From Halanaerobiales bacterium (GTDB lineage: Bacteria; Bacillota_F; Halanaerobiia; DY22613): DNA of 32,484 nt. The first letter of the stretch is position 1. Every line of letters begins with the position of its first letter. The stretch lies in assembly GCA_023128035.1 (NCBI GenBank), contig JAGMES010000040.1, positions 1 to 32,484 on the forward strand, given 5' to 3'. Of this stretch, positions 20,525 through 31,246 are shown one piece after another. Made by a program: the position numbers and the translations under genes. The notes below the pieces were generated by a model. The model did no database searches. It was given only the letters and a program-made list of their open reading frames with translations, and was not told where the DNA came from.

Positions 20525-21760
20525 TCATACTCTCTTTCTTTTTTTTACTAGATTTTGTTTTATTAATTCTTCTGATCTTTCAGGAGTTACGTTAATCGGT
20601 TCATCCTGTATTACAAGTTTTTTCAGTTCCAAATCGTAATAATTTCTGATAGGATAAACTGTAACTCCACCTATTATTTCCCTACAACTATCAAATATCT
20701 TTTCCCACTTTTTATGTTCACTTTTAAATTCAAAATCTTTTAAATTATCTTTATATTTTTGTTTGTTTTTAATTAATTTATTTATTCTTTCCTTTGTAAT
20801 AATTATGTTGTTTTTAGGATTATCATCTAATTGTCTTGTTACTCTTTCTTTGCCCATTTTAAATATTAGTCCATTGACATCATCTTCTATTTGTTCGTAG
20901 GCACTTGAATAGTTTGTAATTAATACAGGTGTTCCTAATATTTTCGCTTCTGTTGTTGCTAGTCCCCAACTTTCAAAATCACTAAACATTACAACATAAT
21001 CAGCCATTACCATGTATGGGTAAGGGTTTGTCTTTTTGCCAACAAAATCAACATTCTTGCCCTCAAATAGCGTAATATACTTGTCGAGCATTTTTGGTGA
21101 ATATGCTTTGCCAACTATTGTAAAATGATAATCTTCTTTTGTTTTTTCAAAGTACTCGGCAAGTTCATTTACTCTGTATAATCCTTTTTCATCTGATATT
21201 CTACCGACAAATACAATCTCCAACTTAGATTTCCTTTTAACTTTATATTCAGTTGCCTTCTTCTTTATTCCTTCTACATCTAATTCATTATGTATAACTA
21301 TACCTTTTATTCCTGTAACTTTCTTTAATTGTGTAGCAACCTCTTTACTAACACATACAAATTCATCAATTTTTTCTGTAAAAATAGCTTCTTCTAATAA
21401 ACAATTTGGGTAGACATAAGGAATGGAATGTATCCAACTTATATAATGATTTGCTGTTATCTGTGTTATTACTTTTCGATATTGAAAATATAATCCTCCC
21501 CATACAATTATATCAAAAAAGTAACTATCTTCATTACCTAATTTAATAATAGTTCCGTAATGTTTTAATTCTTTTAGAAAATCACTATCACTATTATCAC
21601 TATAAACAAAATATAAATCATATTTTTTTTGTAATTCTTTTACCGCTTCTTTTACACTTCTAAACTTTTTATTATATGTTTTTTTTGCTAAATTAAGGAT
21701 GGCAACTTCTACTCCGCCATATAAGAACATTCTATAATAAAAACATATCTTCTTCTCCAT
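20525..21760 (-). CDS. GT4-type glycosyltransferase with phage-like C-terminal tail
   Basis: 411 residues. The N-terminal domain begins KICFYYRMFLYGGVEVAILN; the C-terminal Rossmann domain carries EIVFVGRISDEKGLYRV, DYHFTIVGKA and the E-x7-E motif in ESWGLATTEAKI, followed by GTPVLITN. These are marks of retaining GT-B, family 4-type transferases that move a sugar from a nucleotide-sugar donor. The last 48 residues (VYPIRNYYDLELKKLVIQ, NVTPERSEELIKQNLV) are not part of GT4 enzymes and resemble a small domain seen in phage head-region proteins. Start supported by TAGGAGGAAAGT. Substrate unknown. Confidence 0.83.
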   Translation of the reverse strand: MEKKICFYYRMFLYGGVEVAILNLAKKTYNKKFRSVKEAVKELQKKYDLYFVYSDNSDSDFLKELKHYGTIIKLGNEDSYFFDIIVWGGLYFQYRKVITQITANHYISWIHSIPYVYPNCLLEEAIFTEKIDEFVCVSKEVATQLKKVTGIKGIVIHNELDVEGIKKKATEYKVKRKSKLEIVFVGRISDEKGLYRVNELAEYFEKTKEDYHFTIVGKAYSPKMLDKYITLFEGKNVDFVGKKTNPYPYMVMADYVVMFSDFESWGLATTEAKILGTPVLITNYSSAYEQIEDDVNGLIFKMGKERVTRQLDDNPKNNIIITKERINKLIKNKQKYKDNLKDFEFKSEHKKWEKIFDSCREIIGGVTVYPIRNYYDLELKKLVIQDEPINVTPERSEELIKQNLVKKRKRV

Positions 21761-21790
21761 ACTTTCCTCCTAGATTATATTAATGCATTT

Positions 21791-22429
21791 TTATGCATTA
21801 GGTATTTTCATTAATGTAATGCTTCCAACTCTGTTTTTAGTATAAACATAAACTACTTCGCTTAAAACTTTATATTTTACATTTTCTTGTAAACATAAAT
21901 GTTTTGTAAATAGCAAATCCTCGCCTGCCAACATTGTTTCATCAAACCTATAATCTCCAATAAAACTTCGTTTCCAACATTTGTTCCAAACTGCACACAT
22001 ATTGTACACTTCAGACATATATGTTTTTCCGTCAGGAACAAACTGATGATCCTCGTTGGTTCTATAACCCATAAATATAACATCTGGTGATTCTTTAAAA
22101 TCTTCAGCAACCCTTTTAAATCTTGTTTCATTATGGTACGCATCGTCACTGTCTATAAATAATACATAATCTCCTTTGGCAACATCTAGTCCTGCATTTC
22201 TACTTCCACCAGCTAATCGCTTATGGTCGTTTTTTATTAAGATTATATCATCTATCTTTTCTAATATTTCTCTTGTCCCATCAGTACTCATATCGTCTAT
22301 AACTATTAATTCATAATTTTTATATGTTTGCATTTTTACATTGCCAATCGCTCTATATATAAAATCTTTTGTATTAAAAGCAGGCATTATTACACTAATT
22401 AAAAAATCCTCTTTTTCCATAATCAACAT
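21791..22429 (-). CDS. Family 2 glycosyltransferase
   Basis: The GT-A fold signatures are clear: ISVIMPAFNTKDFIYRAIGN, YELIVIDDMSTDGTREIL, then SRNAGLDVAKGDYVLFIDSDDAY with the DxD metal site, and LAGEDLLFTKHLC, whose ED is the usual catalytic base region. Such enzymes add a sugar to glycan or protein acceptors. I start at the ATG at 22429, 5 bases after GAGGG; an upstream TTG (22432) and a downstream ATG (22420) are alternatives. It overlaps the preceding gene's end by 35 bases. The protein is short (213 residues), about a catalytic domain only, with no membrane span. Confidence 0.87.
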   Translation of the reverse strand: MLIMEKEDFLISVIMPAFNTKDFIYRAIGNVKMQTYKNYELIVIDDMSTDGTREILEKIDDIILIKNDHKRLAGGSRNAGLDVAKGDYVLFIDSDDAYHNETRFKRVAEDFKESPDVIFMGYRTNEDHQFVPDGKTYMSEVYNMCAVWNKCWKRSFIGDYRFDETMLAGEDLLFTKHLCLQENVKYKVLSEVVYVYTKNRVGSITLMKIPNA

Positions 22430-23066
22430 CAACTCCCTCTTCTAGGAAAAATCTTTCAACTTCTCTCATCCATTTACCTTTATGAATTGCGAAGAAATTA
22501 TAATTATAATATCCATTGTCAATTATGTGTTCTCCAACATTTACATATTGCTTATATTTACTGGTTATTTTTGTTAATTCCCATTCCCATGGACTTTGGT
22601 TTTTTTCTAATCTCTCTATTAACTTCTCTCTATCCCATATTGAAGGTGAACATCCATTCATGTAGACTGCATTGTTTCGCTTCGCTACATAACCTCCATA
22701 TACATCTTCTTCGTTATAAAAATCTTTGTTTCTTTTAGCCCCACATAGATTTATTGTTATTATATCTTCATTCATTAGCCAGATTGCTCTGTCTATTTCC
22801 TTTTGGTTGACCTTGCCTCTAATGAATGAATCCTCTGTCATAAATATTATATACTTTGTATCTATCTGTTTAAGTGCTTCACGCAATCTTTTAGTCCAAA
22901 CATTGCTATCTATATTTATAGTTTCGCAATACTCTGATTTCTTTGTTTCAGTAATTAGATAAGACTTATAAGGACAATCTTTCCAATATTTATCTTTAAA
23001 ATGAAAAAACAACTTCCAACAATCATCGTAATTGTCGCAACTAACTATTACAAGACTTGTATTCAT
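22395..23066 (-). CDS. Glycosyltransferase-like protein (223 aa)
   Basis: It begins MNTSLVIVSCDNYDDCWKLF and has a nucleotide-sugar-binding look: CDNYDDC, then KYIIFMTEDSFIRGKVN, where the TEDS stretch stands in for a DxD metal site, and NGCSPSIWDREKLIERLE. This arrangement matches a set of small glycosyltransferase-like proteins found in polysaccharide clusters. The ATGA overlap with the FrhB-like gene indicates coupled translation. It is less certain than its GT2 and GT4 neighbours; the fold assignment is by pattern. Confidence 0.68.
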   Translation of the reverse strand: MNTSLVIVSCDNYDDCWKLFFHFKDKYWKDCPYKSYLITETKKSEYCETINIDSNVWTKRLREALKQIDTKYIIFMTEDSFIRGKVNQKEIDRAIWLMNEDIITINLCGAKRNKDFYNEEDVYGGYVAKRNNAVYMNGCSPSIWDREKLIERLEKNQSPWEWELTKITSKYKQYVNVGEHIIDNGYYNYNFFAIHKGKWMREVERFFLEEGVDVDYGKRGFFN

Positions 23067-27705: not shown

Positions 27706-27734
27706 ATCATATATGAATAAAACAATATTGTCAA
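27706..27734 (-). promoter_or_regulatory. Promoter, TTGACA-17-TATGAT
   Basis: Minus strand TTGACA at 27734-27729, a 17-base spacer and TATGAT at 27711-27706 (5 of 6). The start would be near 27699, very close to the GGAGG of the homing endonuclease gene, giving an extremely short leader. It probably serves the endonuclease and ssb. Confidence 0.72.
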
Positions 27735-29399: not shown

Positions 29400-30086
29400 T
29401 TATTTCTCCTCTTTCTTTTCTTCTATTTTTTTAATCAGTTCACTTGCCATAGCAAATGTCATATCTTCTATTTTTGCTAATTCTTTTTTATTTAACAATT
29501 CTTGCAATTTATCTCCATAAGCATCTATAATATATTTCCTTTGACTAGGTGATGCTTTTTTAGGTTCATTAGTAGAATCATCTTTTTTGATATTAGTTTT
29601 TTTAGCGTTTAATTCTTCGTCAATTATATCACTACTTGTTTTATCAGGATCTTCTCCTGTTGGTATAGCAAATGTTCTTAATAATAAATATTTATATGAA
29701 TAAGTCATTGCTTTTCCTACACCTTTATCTTGGGTGTCTACTCCTGTTCCGCTAGATACCGCTATAACATAATCTTCTATATCATCTATGTTTTGTATCC
29801 TATACTTTGTATCAACAGTTGATAATCTACTTATTTTTGCTTTTCCATAATTGTCAACGATATGATCGTCAGTTCTAGAATGTAGTTGTTCTATTGGAAT
29901 TATAACTACTCCATGTGTAATTAATGCTTTTCGAACTTCGCCTGTAACCTTTTCTTCACTAATTGCTTTATATCCTGCTTGTGTAGATTTATTTGTTATA
30001 ACTTTATCATCTTTTTGTAAATATCTTATATCTTCCATTATCTTTGCTATTTTTTGATATATATTGTTTTTCTTTTCCTCCGCCAT
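29400..30086 (-). CDS. erf: ERF-family single-strand annealing protein
   Basis: Residues about 5-140 match the ERF family: NIYQKIAKIMEDIRYLQKDD, AISEEKVTGEVRKALITHGV, then AVSSGTGVDTQDKGVGKAMT and YSYKYLLLRTFAIPTGEDPD. These proteins anneal complementary strands in phage recombination. A Lys/Asp-rich linker is followed by a small C-terminal domain (SQRKYIIDAYGDKLQELL). The ATG at 30086 has GGAGGTGACAATA just upstream and was preferred to one at 30113. Works with the PD-(D/E)XK nuclease and SSB. Confidence 0.88.
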   Translation of the reverse strand: MAEEKKNNIYQKIAKIMEDIRYLQKDDKVITNKSTQAGYKAISEEKVTGEVRKALITHGVVIIPIEQLHSRTDDHIVDNYGKAKISRLSTVDTKYRIQNIDDIEDYVIAVSSGTGVDTQDKGVGKAMTYSYKYLLLRTFAIPTGEDPDKTSSDIIDEELNAKKTNIKKDDSTNEPKKASPSQRKYIIDAYGDKLQELLNKKELAKIEDMTFAMASELIKKIEEKKEEK

Positions 30087-30243
30087 TATTGTCACCTCCT
30101 TTATTTTTCTCATTTATATTTAATGGTATAAATGGCTTTTTAAATGTATCATTTTCTTTTAATTCTTTTTTTATTTTATTAAATGTTTTTATAAACTCTC
30201 TATTCTTCCCTTTTCTTTTTATCATTCTTCTTTGACTACTCAT
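30007..30243 (-). CDS. Small basic hypothetical protein (78 aa)
   Basis: ATG at 30243 follows AAAAGGAGAATAATA and overlaps the end of the replication gene by 8 bases. The product is very basic (MSSQRRMIKRKGKNREFIK) with a Gly/Asn/Lys-rich C-terminus. The frame runs 80 bases into the ERF gene, which is unusual for this compact genome and leaves its last 26 residues uncertain. It fills a gap that would otherwise be about 150 bases. Function unknown; nucleic-acid binding is possible. Confidence 0.5.
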   Translation of the reverse strand: MSSQRRMIKRKGKNREFIKTFNKIKKELKENDTFKKPFIPLNINEKNKGGDNNGGGKEKQYISKNSKDNGRYKIFTKR

Positions 30244-30736
30244 TATTATTCTCCTTTTGATTAAGCCAATCATAACTTAATGCTTCATCTAATTCAAGGT
30301 CTTCTTTATCTTTATTAACAAGAACATTATCATTTATATCTTCATTATCATTTTCATTTCCTATATGGTTAGGCATATGCTTAACCTTATGCTTAACCTT
30401 ATGGTTAACCTTATGGTTCTTTTCTACGTTTTTAGGTCGCCCACCTTTATATCCGTTATCATATCTACTCTTAACATAGGCATTCCTTTTGATACTCTCC
30501 TCTTCCATGCGTTCGTTATAATAATTACCATCTTTATCTATTATAAATTTAGATAATACATCAGGGCTTATATCCTCTAACTCCCCTATGTTTATAATGA
30601 GAGTCTTTTTAGATAACCTGCCTTGCTGGTGCTGTAATGATAACATCGTAATGTATTGTCCGCGTTCTTTCATCGTGAGATTGCTAACCCCCGTTAAAAA
30701 ATCACTAGTATAAAATAATACTGCGGGGCTTTTCAT
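30236..30736 (-). CDS. Replication initiator-like protein with internal iterons
   Basis: The N-terminal 100 residues (MKSPAVLFYTSDFLTGVSNL, MKERGQYITMLSLQHQQGRL, then KDGNYYNERMEEESIKRNAY and GYKGGRPKN) match the DUF1376-like winged-helix module of phage replication or primosomal proteins. A His/Lys/Val-rich stretch (HKVNHKVKHKVKHMPNH) is encoded by 12-base tandem repeats, and the end is acidic. In lambda and many Firmicutes phages the origin lies inside the initiator gene, so the repeats may be the origin. No AAA+ helicase loader was found nearby. It is the first gene after the pseudoknot RNA element. Confidence 0.75.
   Translation of the reverse strand: MKSPAVLFYTSDFLTGVSNLTMKERGQYITMLSLQHQQGRLSKKTLIINIGELEDISPDVLSKFIIDKDGNYYNERMEEESIKRNAYVKSRYDNGYKGGRPKNVEKNHKVNHKVKHKVKHMPNHIGNENDNEDINDNVLVNKDKEDLELDEALSYDWLNQKENNNE
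30367..30418. repeat. 12-bp iterons, candidate replication origin
   Basis: Three 12-base units lie head to tail at 30379-30390, 30391-30402 and 30403-30414 (gcttaaccttat twice, then ggttaaccttat). A diverged copy (8 of 12) lies at 30367-30378, and the first 4 bases of another follow at 30415-30418. Each unit contains TTAACC. Such iterons inside an initiator gene are the usual phage origin layout. They could also be only a coding repeat for the HKV units. Confidence 0.65.
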
Positions 30737-30763
30737 AAATTATCACTACACCTTTCTTTTACT

Positions 30764-30871
30764 AAAAAAGATAATAAACAAAATCGAGAGAATAACTACT
30801 TTCATCGGCTAGGACAATTTTGTTATTCTCTCGGGTTTATTTACTATCTTTCTCGTCCTAGCCTATTAAGT
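30764..30871 (-). ncRNA. Predicted pseudoknot RNA with terminator-like end
   Basis: A 30-bp arm pair (30767-30796 with 30822-30851; 26 Watson-Crick pairs) encloses a 25-base loop. The loop contains ggctaggac (30807-30815), and its exact complement gtcctagcc lies outside the hairpin at 30855-30863. Loop-tail pairing of 9 bp makes an H-type pseudoknot. On the minus strand the hairpin is followed by UUUUUU (30769-30764), so it may also terminate. The predicted start (near 30871) of the promoter just upstream lies 8 bases before the tail segment, so a transcript of about 108 nt would consist almost entirely of this fold. No frame in it is supported. Family unknown. Confidence 0.65.
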
Positions 30872-30877
30872 AATTTA

Positions 30878-30906
30878 ATAATATATCTTAATTCTATTTT
30901 TGTCAA
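30878..30906 (-). promoter_or_regulatory. Promoter, TTGACA-17-TATTAT
   Basis: Minus strand TTGACA at 30906-30901, a 17-base spacer and TATTAT at 30883-30878 (5 of 6). It starts 3 bases after the stop of the 27-residue membrane peptide gene. Predicted start near 30871. It drives the pseudoknot RNA and, by readthrough, the replication and recombination genes. Confidence 0.75.
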
Positions 30907-30908
30907 TA

Positions 30909-30992
30909 CTAAATTGAAATTAAATAACTTAATATTGATAATGCTATTAAAAACAAAATTAATGCCGCGAATTGATCCGCTCTATCTTTCAT
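30909..30992 (-). CDS. 27-residue membrane peptide
   Basis: The ATG overlaps the upstream stop (ATGA) and follows AAAGGTGTTAGT. The product (MKDRADQFAALILFLIALSI and then LSYLISI) has a short charged N-terminus and one membrane span over residues about 8-27. The exact stop-start overlap supports translation. Small single-span peptides at the end of early operons occur in many phages; function unknown. Confidence 0.58.
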   Translation of the reverse strand: MKDRADQFAALILFLIALSILSYLISI

Positions 30993-31246
30993 ACTAACAC
31001 CTTTACCTTTCTTACATAATCATCAATATATTTGCCATTTTCTTTATCTGATACTGTGATTTCGTTATATAATACATGTATGTCTCCTCTAAATATACAA
31101 CAATTTTCTTCTGTTGTTTTTCCATTTTCTCTTAATGGCGTTATATGATGTAAAGTTAACTTATACTTTTTAGTTGGTTTATAACCAAATATATCTATTT
31201 TGCCATATTGGAGTATTAGATGTGCTTTAAGTGTTTTATTTTTCAT
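30989..31246 (-). CDS. Small HNH-like (His-Me finger) protein
   Basis: 85 residues. The centre reads LTLHHITPLRENGKTTEENC and continues CIFRGDIHVLYNEI, which is the pattern of small HNH proteins (HH-I, G-K-T-x-EN and a final His). The zinc-binding cysteines are incomplete, so it may be a degenerate or minimal member. The start overlaps the previous gene by 11 bases. Activity not shown. Confidence 0.58.
   Translation of the reverse strand: MKNKTLKAHLILQYGKIDIFGYKPTKKYKLTLHHITPLRENGKTTEENCCIFRGDIHVLYNEITVSDKENGKYIDDYVRKVKVLV

Follow-up and report, generated by a model that had tools for sequence, protein, structure and literature searches.

We report that the replication genes of a tailed phage in contig JAGMES010000040.1 (assembly GCA_023128035.1, Halanaerobiales bacterium; the whole stretch of 32,484 nucleotides (nt) is hereafter called the window) are preceded by a predicted leader RNA in which a 9-base segment close to the predicted transcript start, A, is exactly complementary to a second segment, A', in the loop of a terminator-like hairpin. 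The leader element is real, since both its hairpin and its complementarity exceed chance. Leaders of the same layout recur upstream of genes of the DUF1376 family in other phages, and in two groups of these leaders, families I and V, comparison of the sequences indicates that the A:A' helix is conserved by strong covariation. The leader of the phage replication operon probably acts as an attenuator.

Structure of the window leader and its departure from chance

The leader occupies the gap from an HNH-like gene (30989-31246) to the DUF1376/primosomal gene. A transcript of the minus strand is predicted to start at ~30871, with A following 8 nt later and then a hairpin of 31 base pairs (bp), divided into 19 + 12 bp around a 2x2 internal loop (Table 1). 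Recomputation of the layout upheld several proposals of the first-pass annotation, namely the exact complementarity between the 9-base loop segment and a tail outside the hairpin, the position directly before replication genes, and the fit of promoter-like site, pseudoknot and terminator-like hairpin as a single unit. The hairpin itself was also recovered, at 31 bp and not the 30 bp given there, and the U-tract that had been placed after it turned out to lie within it, as the 3' end of the lower stem.

Table 1. Positions of the leader elements and adjoining genes in the window
Feature	Position	Strand	Basis
Sigma-70-like promoter TTGACA-17-TATTAT	30878..30906	-	11/12 positions
Segment A, GGCTAGGAC	30855..30863	-	read and recomputed from sequence
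Lower stem 5' arm, 19 nt, A-rich	30836..30854	-	folding
Upper stem 5' arm, 12 nt	30822..30833	-	folding
Apical loop, 25 nt	30797..30821	-	folding
Segment A', GTCCTAGCC, exact complement of A, inside the apical loop	30807..30815	-	read and recomputed from sequence
Upper stem 3' arm	30785..30796	-	folding
Lower stem 3' arm, U-rich, last six U's at 30769-30764	30764..30782	-	folding
Short open reading frame MKVVILSILFIIFFSKRKV, starting 1 base 3' of A' and stopping 9 nt short of the gene	30746..30805	-	by eye; doubtful
Shine-Dalgarno-like AAAGGTG of the replication gene	30749..30755	-	by eye
DUF1376/primosomal protein gene, first one 3' of the leader	30236..30736	-	PF07120, E 1.3e-6, 29.1 bits, slightly below the cut-off of 30.1; phrog_9327 primosomal protein, E 4.8e-10
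Erf-like single-stranded DNA annealing protein gene	29400..30113	-	profile matches; same direction as the DUF1376 gene

The fold of the leader has a z-score of -6.9, which none of 200 shuffles equalled. Shuffling produced a perfect match of at least 9 bases to the 25-nt loop in 18 of 20,000 cases when the 38-nt 5' part was considered and in 32 of 5,000 when 101 nt upstream were allowed, so that the chance of the loop-tail match is ~0.001-0.006, depending on the extent of upstream sequence allowed. When both strands were scanned with our own score, the leader was the top-scoring A-B-A'-B' arrangement of the window.

Only one relative with an alignable leader was found, L001, in which the DUF1376 protein is 71% identical over residues 1-101. 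The 3' half of the leader is preserved there, with an alignment that none of 3,000 shuffles equalled, and the A' of L001, GCTCTAGCC, differs from that of the window at 2 of 9 bases. The L001 contig stops short of A, and covariation was therefore sought in the leaders of other phages; the expected partner of the L001 A' does not occur elsewhere in its contig (L013). This truncation of the only alignable relative leaves some room for the idea that the element is a plain intrinsic terminator with a fortuitous 9-base match. We regard that explanation as unlikely, because the match has a low probability and other DUF1376 genes are preceded by leaders arranged in this way.

Other searches for relatives covered several collections. 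Blastn found no nucleotide relatives of the leader, or of 25 kb of the window, in the phage collection, and in an nhmmer search of the single leader against the loci the best E-value among the matches listed was 2.6. In 49 loci, 44 of them anchored on ERF genes, 10 matches exceeded the threshold, 9 of which lay on the strand opposite the anchor gene, and none was accepted by eye. The DUF1376 alignment matched 3/395 and 21/385 genomes of two groups, the source of loci L138 and L139; these duplicate L098 and L102, and the element was not seen in them by eye, nor was there a leader match in L097, L098, L102 or L103. The upstream region of the DUF1376 gene in L102, from a Bacilli metagenome-assembled genome, carries a cluster of six tRNA genes (202-720). 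For the DUF1376 proteins of three families the only phage match was the gut phage MT837034, in which no leader match was found. Two pattern searches were set aside: an A-gap-A' pattern gave six stretches in viral contigs that appeared to be chance inverted repeats of other genomes, and a half-element pattern gave six places, of which by eye only the one in the contig of L001 (L013) was related.

Recurrence upstream of DUF1376 genes in other phages

A generic A-B-A'-B' search upstream of DUF1376 genes in 80 loci revealed several contigs that share this layout although their sequences are unrelated. The recurring arrangement comprises a box of the TAnnTTTG type, which we take to be the Bacteroidetes-type -7 motif, then at a short distance segment A, followed by a T-tailed hairpin whose loop carries A' and by the start of the DUF1376 gene. 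A TAnnTTnG-like box stands at most 45 nt upstream of A in 25 of the 32 leaders that were curated by eye. In L051, L262 and L330 both segments are 7-base hairpin loops, and their sequences make them candidates for kissing loops.

The 353 loci with a DUF1376 start provided 347 usable upstream regions, which formed 118 clusters (68 for discovery and 50 held out); the layout score was devised after sequences had been inspected. In comparison with dinucleotide shuffles, 15/50 held-out clusters had p<=0.05 and 10/50 had p<=0.01, the corresponding counts for the discovery clusters being 13/68 and 4/68. Six of the 15 held-out clusters belong to family V, and at least two (L350 and L396) do not have the expected arrangement by eye. 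A score of at least 30 was reached by 19/118 DUF1376 upstream clusters versus 22/986 upstream regions of other open reading frames (ORFs) from the same loci (odds ratio 8.4, p 2.9e-9), and the top-scoring control matches (L115, L020 and L073) resemble long inverted repeats. A cruder scan of whole loci gave 54 matches in 1,115,206 bases, counting both strands, with 6 of them directly upstream of DUF1376 genes. An earlier per-locus shuffle test with strict stems gave a weaker result, finding a T-tailed hairpin in 14/68 clusters with p<0.05 in 5 of these 14.

The layout of A followed by A' in a terminator loop was also observed upstream of positions 1137 (L221), 1080 (L339) and 239 (L083), where it is found one gene earlier, ahead of an HNH gene, or in front of a different ORF of the DUF1376-bearing phage. 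Rfam gave no match to any leader searched, and none above the gathering score in the window; four sub-threshold matches at the window leader were to other families and were set aside. Outside the leaders, L372:568-600 matches the DUF805b RNA (RF02914, 42.8 bits) ~900 nt upstream of the DUF1376 gene.

Covariation and rapid change of the paired segments

In family I, represented by an alignment of 18 leaders out of 26 distinct leader strings, the loop of a 5' hairpin pairs with the terminator loop over 7 bases. Across the three helices 99.2% of 396 cells are paired, one leader, L018, having a single A:A' mismatch, whereas control structures slid along the alignment reached at most 46.3%. Two-sided changes occur in 5/7 A:A' pairs. 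Of five measures, four were reached by 0/500 shuffles and the fifth (further pair types) by 92/500. Family V, comprising 14 distinct leaders chosen by a shared motif, has 126/126 A:A' cells paired with 8 allele pairs; when the A' segments were dealt anew, the mean was 89 and the maximum 113 paired cells, and 0/10,000 deals reached 126. The geometry of family V is close to that of the window, with S1 of 9 bp, L1 of 18-21 nt, S2 of 11 bp and L3 of 8 nt.

Since A and A' are close inverted repeats, their complementarity might in principle be maintained by template switching during DNA replication, with no RNA function needed; template-switch correction is a process that acts on quasi-palindromes. 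We consider such a mutational artefact improbable, as it is at odds with the enrichment of the element before one gene family, with the -7-like box found close upstream of A in most curated leaders, and with the covariation of the terminator and 5' hairpin stems in family I.

The segments that pair are at the same time the most variable part of the leader in both families, with 0.37-0.41 pairwise differences per site compared with 0.0-0.11 in the stems and spacers measured. This contrast, determined for families I and V, extends to the neighboring gene: the p-distance of A/A' is 0.39 in family V and 0.38 in family I, whereas third codon positions of DUF1376 have values of 0.21 and 0.12, respectively. 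Even for pairs with a third-position distance below 0.1, the A/A' distance is still 0.43 (family V, 5 pairs) and 0.36 (family I, 53 pairs). On the gene trees of the two families, parsimony assigns 3.56 and 3.57 steps per site to A, 3.22 and 3.71 to A', 1.42 and 1.20 to third positions, and 0.83 and 0.61 to the rest of the leader, and in 20,000 random draws of third positions the level of A was reached 4 and 15 times. Change in A/A' thus runs at ~2.5-3 times the rate seen at third codon positions of the neighboring gene, in a leader that otherwise hardly varies. The alleles are also nearly orthogonal, cross pairing coming within 3 kcal of self pairing in 2/56 and 4/30 combinations. Selection for distinct words is, on these sequence comparisons, the favored although unproved explanation; part of the rate contrast could stem from recombination that separates leader and gene or from template switching within the inverted-repeat pair.

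A segment that changes this fast within a nearly fixed leader is expected of a recognition sequence and not of a ligand pocket. A ligand-sensing riboswitch with an aptamer embedded in the terminator, like the HMP-PP (thiS) class, is accordingly very improbable. The switch logic of that class is similar, in that a possible pseudoknot interferes with the part of the terminator stem next to the U run and leaves the stem tip in place, and the loop of that class is abnormally well conserved according to the available text of PMC6478431, whereas the corresponding pairing is hypervariable here; the lack of an Rfam match above the gathering score at the window leader is a further point against it.

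Possible self-recognition and comparison with known systems

The rapid turnover of nearly orthogonal words in families I and V would fit a self-recognition RNA comparable to phage P4 immunity or plasmid incompatibility RNAs. Under this explanation, the terminated leader would accumulate and its A or A' would pair with the matching segment of newly made transcripts from the same phage type, thereby shutting down the replication gene of co-infecting kin, with the alleles serving as compatibility groups. A precedent is provided by P4, in which the CI RNA, with its targets seqA and seqC, directs transcription of the replication genes to end prematurely and so keeps them unexpressed (available part of PMC4825925; see also that of PMC10111431). 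We hold self-recognition to be a tentative possibility. It has to contend with 30/91 (family V) and 48/171 (family I) pairs in which the A/A' distance does not exceed the third-position distance, as it does in the other 61/91 and 123/171, and recombination may inflate this contrast. No further exact copy of A or A' exists in the window, and trans action is something that we infer. Among the 33 records judged to bear the leader, which may be fragments, a tyrosine integrase was found in 2, HTH_3 in 3 (1 above the cut-off) and a ParA-like AAA_31 in none, and these low counts would tend to argue against a classical prophage-immunity role.

A broader version of the same idea, which we offer as a speculative one, is that RNA self-recognition is widespread in tailed phages. 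Each phage type would carry a private A/A' word, the terminated leader RNA would read the word of incoming kin and decide on transcription of the replication gene, and diversifying selection against kin, satellites or host RNAs would mint new words.

The leader shares with P4 immunity its position in front of a replication operon, the internal complementary segments, the predicted premature termination and a possible link to the translation of leader ORFs (PMC4825925 and PMC10111431, in the parts available). The complementary segments are a P4-type feature found directly in the window and covarying in families I and V. Unlike P4, the leader has one A and one A', the latter within a terminator-like hairpin and able to form a pseudoknot or kissing pair, its action in trans is conjectural, and 31/33 carriers searched lack a tyrosine integrase (again in records that may be fragments). 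The Rfam profiles for P4-type immunity RNA are C4 and isrK, as named in the accessible text of PMC10111431, and neither had a match in the window or in 29 further loci.

In the I-complex plasmids, replication control involves a pseudoknot and a leader peptide. The likeness of the leader to RNAI and stem-loop I of these plasmids (IncK, IncB and ColIb-P9) lies in the loop-based recognition of RNA before a replication gene, with loop bases deciding compatibility (PMC10724649, available portion); the hairpin described here differs in looking like a terminator. RNAI is an antisense RNA made from the opposite strand, and for the window leader a consensus scan listed no plus-strand promoter-like site within 400 bases before 30764. 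With the HMP-PP riboswitch the leader shares competition between a pseudoknot and the base of the terminator (PMC6478431, in part). Type III toxin-antitoxin RNAs (ToxI) and AbiF RNA likewise combine a structured RNA and a terminator before a gene, as far as the accessible text of PMC12373285 describes them, but they consist of repeated RNA motifs next to a toxin gene, whereas here a single element precedes a primosomal gene. A self-comparison of the window by blastn at E 1e-3 recovered nothing beyond the identity match, and the downstream gene is primosomal/DUF1376; a type III antitoxin was set aside.

By analogy, the leader would appear to work most like a blend of P4 immunity and the HMP-PP riboswitch, and it is a tested member of none of the systems compared here. 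No description of such a leader was recognised in the titles and abstract openings of the literature matches listed. Thousands of candidate structured RNAs from human microbiomes, some of them near phage genes, are reported in the available text of PMC8040213, and members of this leader class may already be listed, unnamed, in its supplement. The leader is best filed as an attenuator-leader variant that is recurrent before phage primosomal genes.

Competing folds and a proposed model of attenuation

Segment A abuts the foot of the lower stem and no linker is left once all 31 bp have formed, so the 9-bp A:A' helix and the whole stem should be alternatives. The first-pass annotation described a textbook H-type pseudoknot, a description that is apt for the 12-bp upper stem alone combined with A:A' (L1 = 21, L2 = 6 and L3 = 10 nt) and fails for the entire stem. 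Its suggestion of a switch with the terminator hairpin holds in the sense that geometry and energies point to competition with part of the terminator.

The computed energies are -33.6 kcal/mol for the full hairpin, -15.7 for the upper stem and -16.0 for A:A' (-18.2 when extended). A pseudoknot costs ~7-10 kcal/mol, which leaves roughly -22 to -27 kcal/mol for the upper stem together with A:A', whereas a hairpin with only 5-10 lower pairs has -17.0 to -22.2 kcal/mol. Nested minimum free energy folding of the growing RNA gives A:A' at the tested lengths of 65-85 nt; at 90 nt the upper stem takes its place, and from ~100 nt onward the full hairpin is the best fold. These computations suggest that which fold prevails probably depends on timing at the U run.

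We therefore propose the following sequence of events for the window. RNA polymerase would start at ~30871 and transcribe A and then the hairpin. As A' emerges ahead of the 3' arms, A:A' (9-11 bp) is computed to form first, and the upper 12-bp stem could stack onto it as an H-type pseudoknot while the hairpin is being transcribed. Completion of the lower 19 bp, whose 3' arm includes the U run, would require A:A' to open. In the window A:A' would most likely favor read-through into the primosomal gene, and the full hairpin would stop transcription. An occupant of A or A', such as a second leader RNA, a protein or an initiating ribosome, would shift the balance, and self-recognition in trans may be added to the cis A:A' helix. 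Termination, its regulation, the direction of control and the nature of the occupant are all inferred. What the families would have in common is that A:A' pairing decides what becomes of the leader transcript.

Several observations weigh against this interpretation. No element is detectable in 90/118 DUF1376 clusters (p>0.05), and in the loci searched no second example of the Firmicutes type was found besides L001. Homology of the window leader with the Bacteroidetes-type families is suggested by position and arrangement and not by sequence, so that convergence is possible. In families I and V the A:A' helix is not obviously exclusive of the terminator stem; the two look able to coexist, and the direction of control may therefore differ between families. 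Finally, although the promoter pointed out in the first-pass annotation is present, its occurrence is within chance, as the window has 6 sites matching at least 11/12 positions compared with 2-6 in each of 12 shuffles, and the sequence is so AT-rich that the promoter alone is unremarkable.

Leader ORFs and possible coupling to translation

A scan limited to ATG starts found that an ORF of at least 6 residues opens at A in 20/32 curated leaders, starting 0-7 nt after A in 19 of them and inside A in L002; the other 12/32 have no such ORF. The predicted leader peptide is MCLVVK in family I and MK(N/T)xxNPxxTxLP in family V, where L383 reads NPTAITLP at this place and L391 and L392 run on. In L052 and L058 the stop of the leader ORF overlaps the ATG of DUF1376. 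The leader peptides of L092 and L093 share xQGDKTTxxRxxSLxVGCCRTSP, so that RNA and coding constraints overlap there.

These ORFs would be accounted for by a translation-coupled attenuator: with A placed at the start codon of a short ORF, as in many Bacteroidetes-type leaders, a loaded ribosome and the A:A' helix would be mutually exclusive, and the ribosome would open the terminator as it translates. The frequency of ORFs at A, the overlap with the DUF1376 start codon in two leaders and the shared peptide of family V favor this mechanism, as does the title of a 1999 study on translational control of immunity-specific termination in P4, cited in the available part of PMC10111431. We nevertheless rate it as rather doubtful. 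In the window, A is not closely followed by a start codon; the short ORF found there begins after A' and is absent from L001, for which reasons it is doubtful and no argument was built on it. In family I, 18 columns of the ORF stretch are invariant across all 18 rows, and coding selection is therefore indistinguishable from RNA constraint.

Gene neighborhood of the leader

The window (GC 30%) represents a tailed phage of the Firmicutes type, with a large terminase that shares 47% identity with its counterpart in Enterococcus phage EFC-1 and 43-46% with those of Anaerostipes and Streptococcus phages. All of its genes that were given a name are on the minus strand. The DUF1376 gene is followed by genes for the Erf-like protein, an exonuclease, HNH proteins, SSB, NinB and RusA. 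No integrase or repressor family was found among the 40 window ORFs scanned with PHROGs (out of 115 mechanical ORFs). Two glycosyltransferase-like genes, one of them GtrB-like, are located between the packaging and replication genes (20525-22432, minus strand). Two further TTGACA promoter-like sites matching 11/12 positions precede the HNH and RusA genes on the minus strand, at 27734 and 25443; they are possibly further operon starts, their number being within chance.

Biological implications

This work points to a recurrent and apparently unnamed class of phage leader RNAs located before replication genes, with comparative support for a long-range helix whose complementary words change faster than neighboring silent sites in two families. 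If the words act only in cis, the leaders would represent an attenuator design with a simple rule, in which the pairing is kept and the letters are free. Action of the words in trans would mean that phages other than P4 possess RNA-coded compatibility groups, recognizable from sequence.
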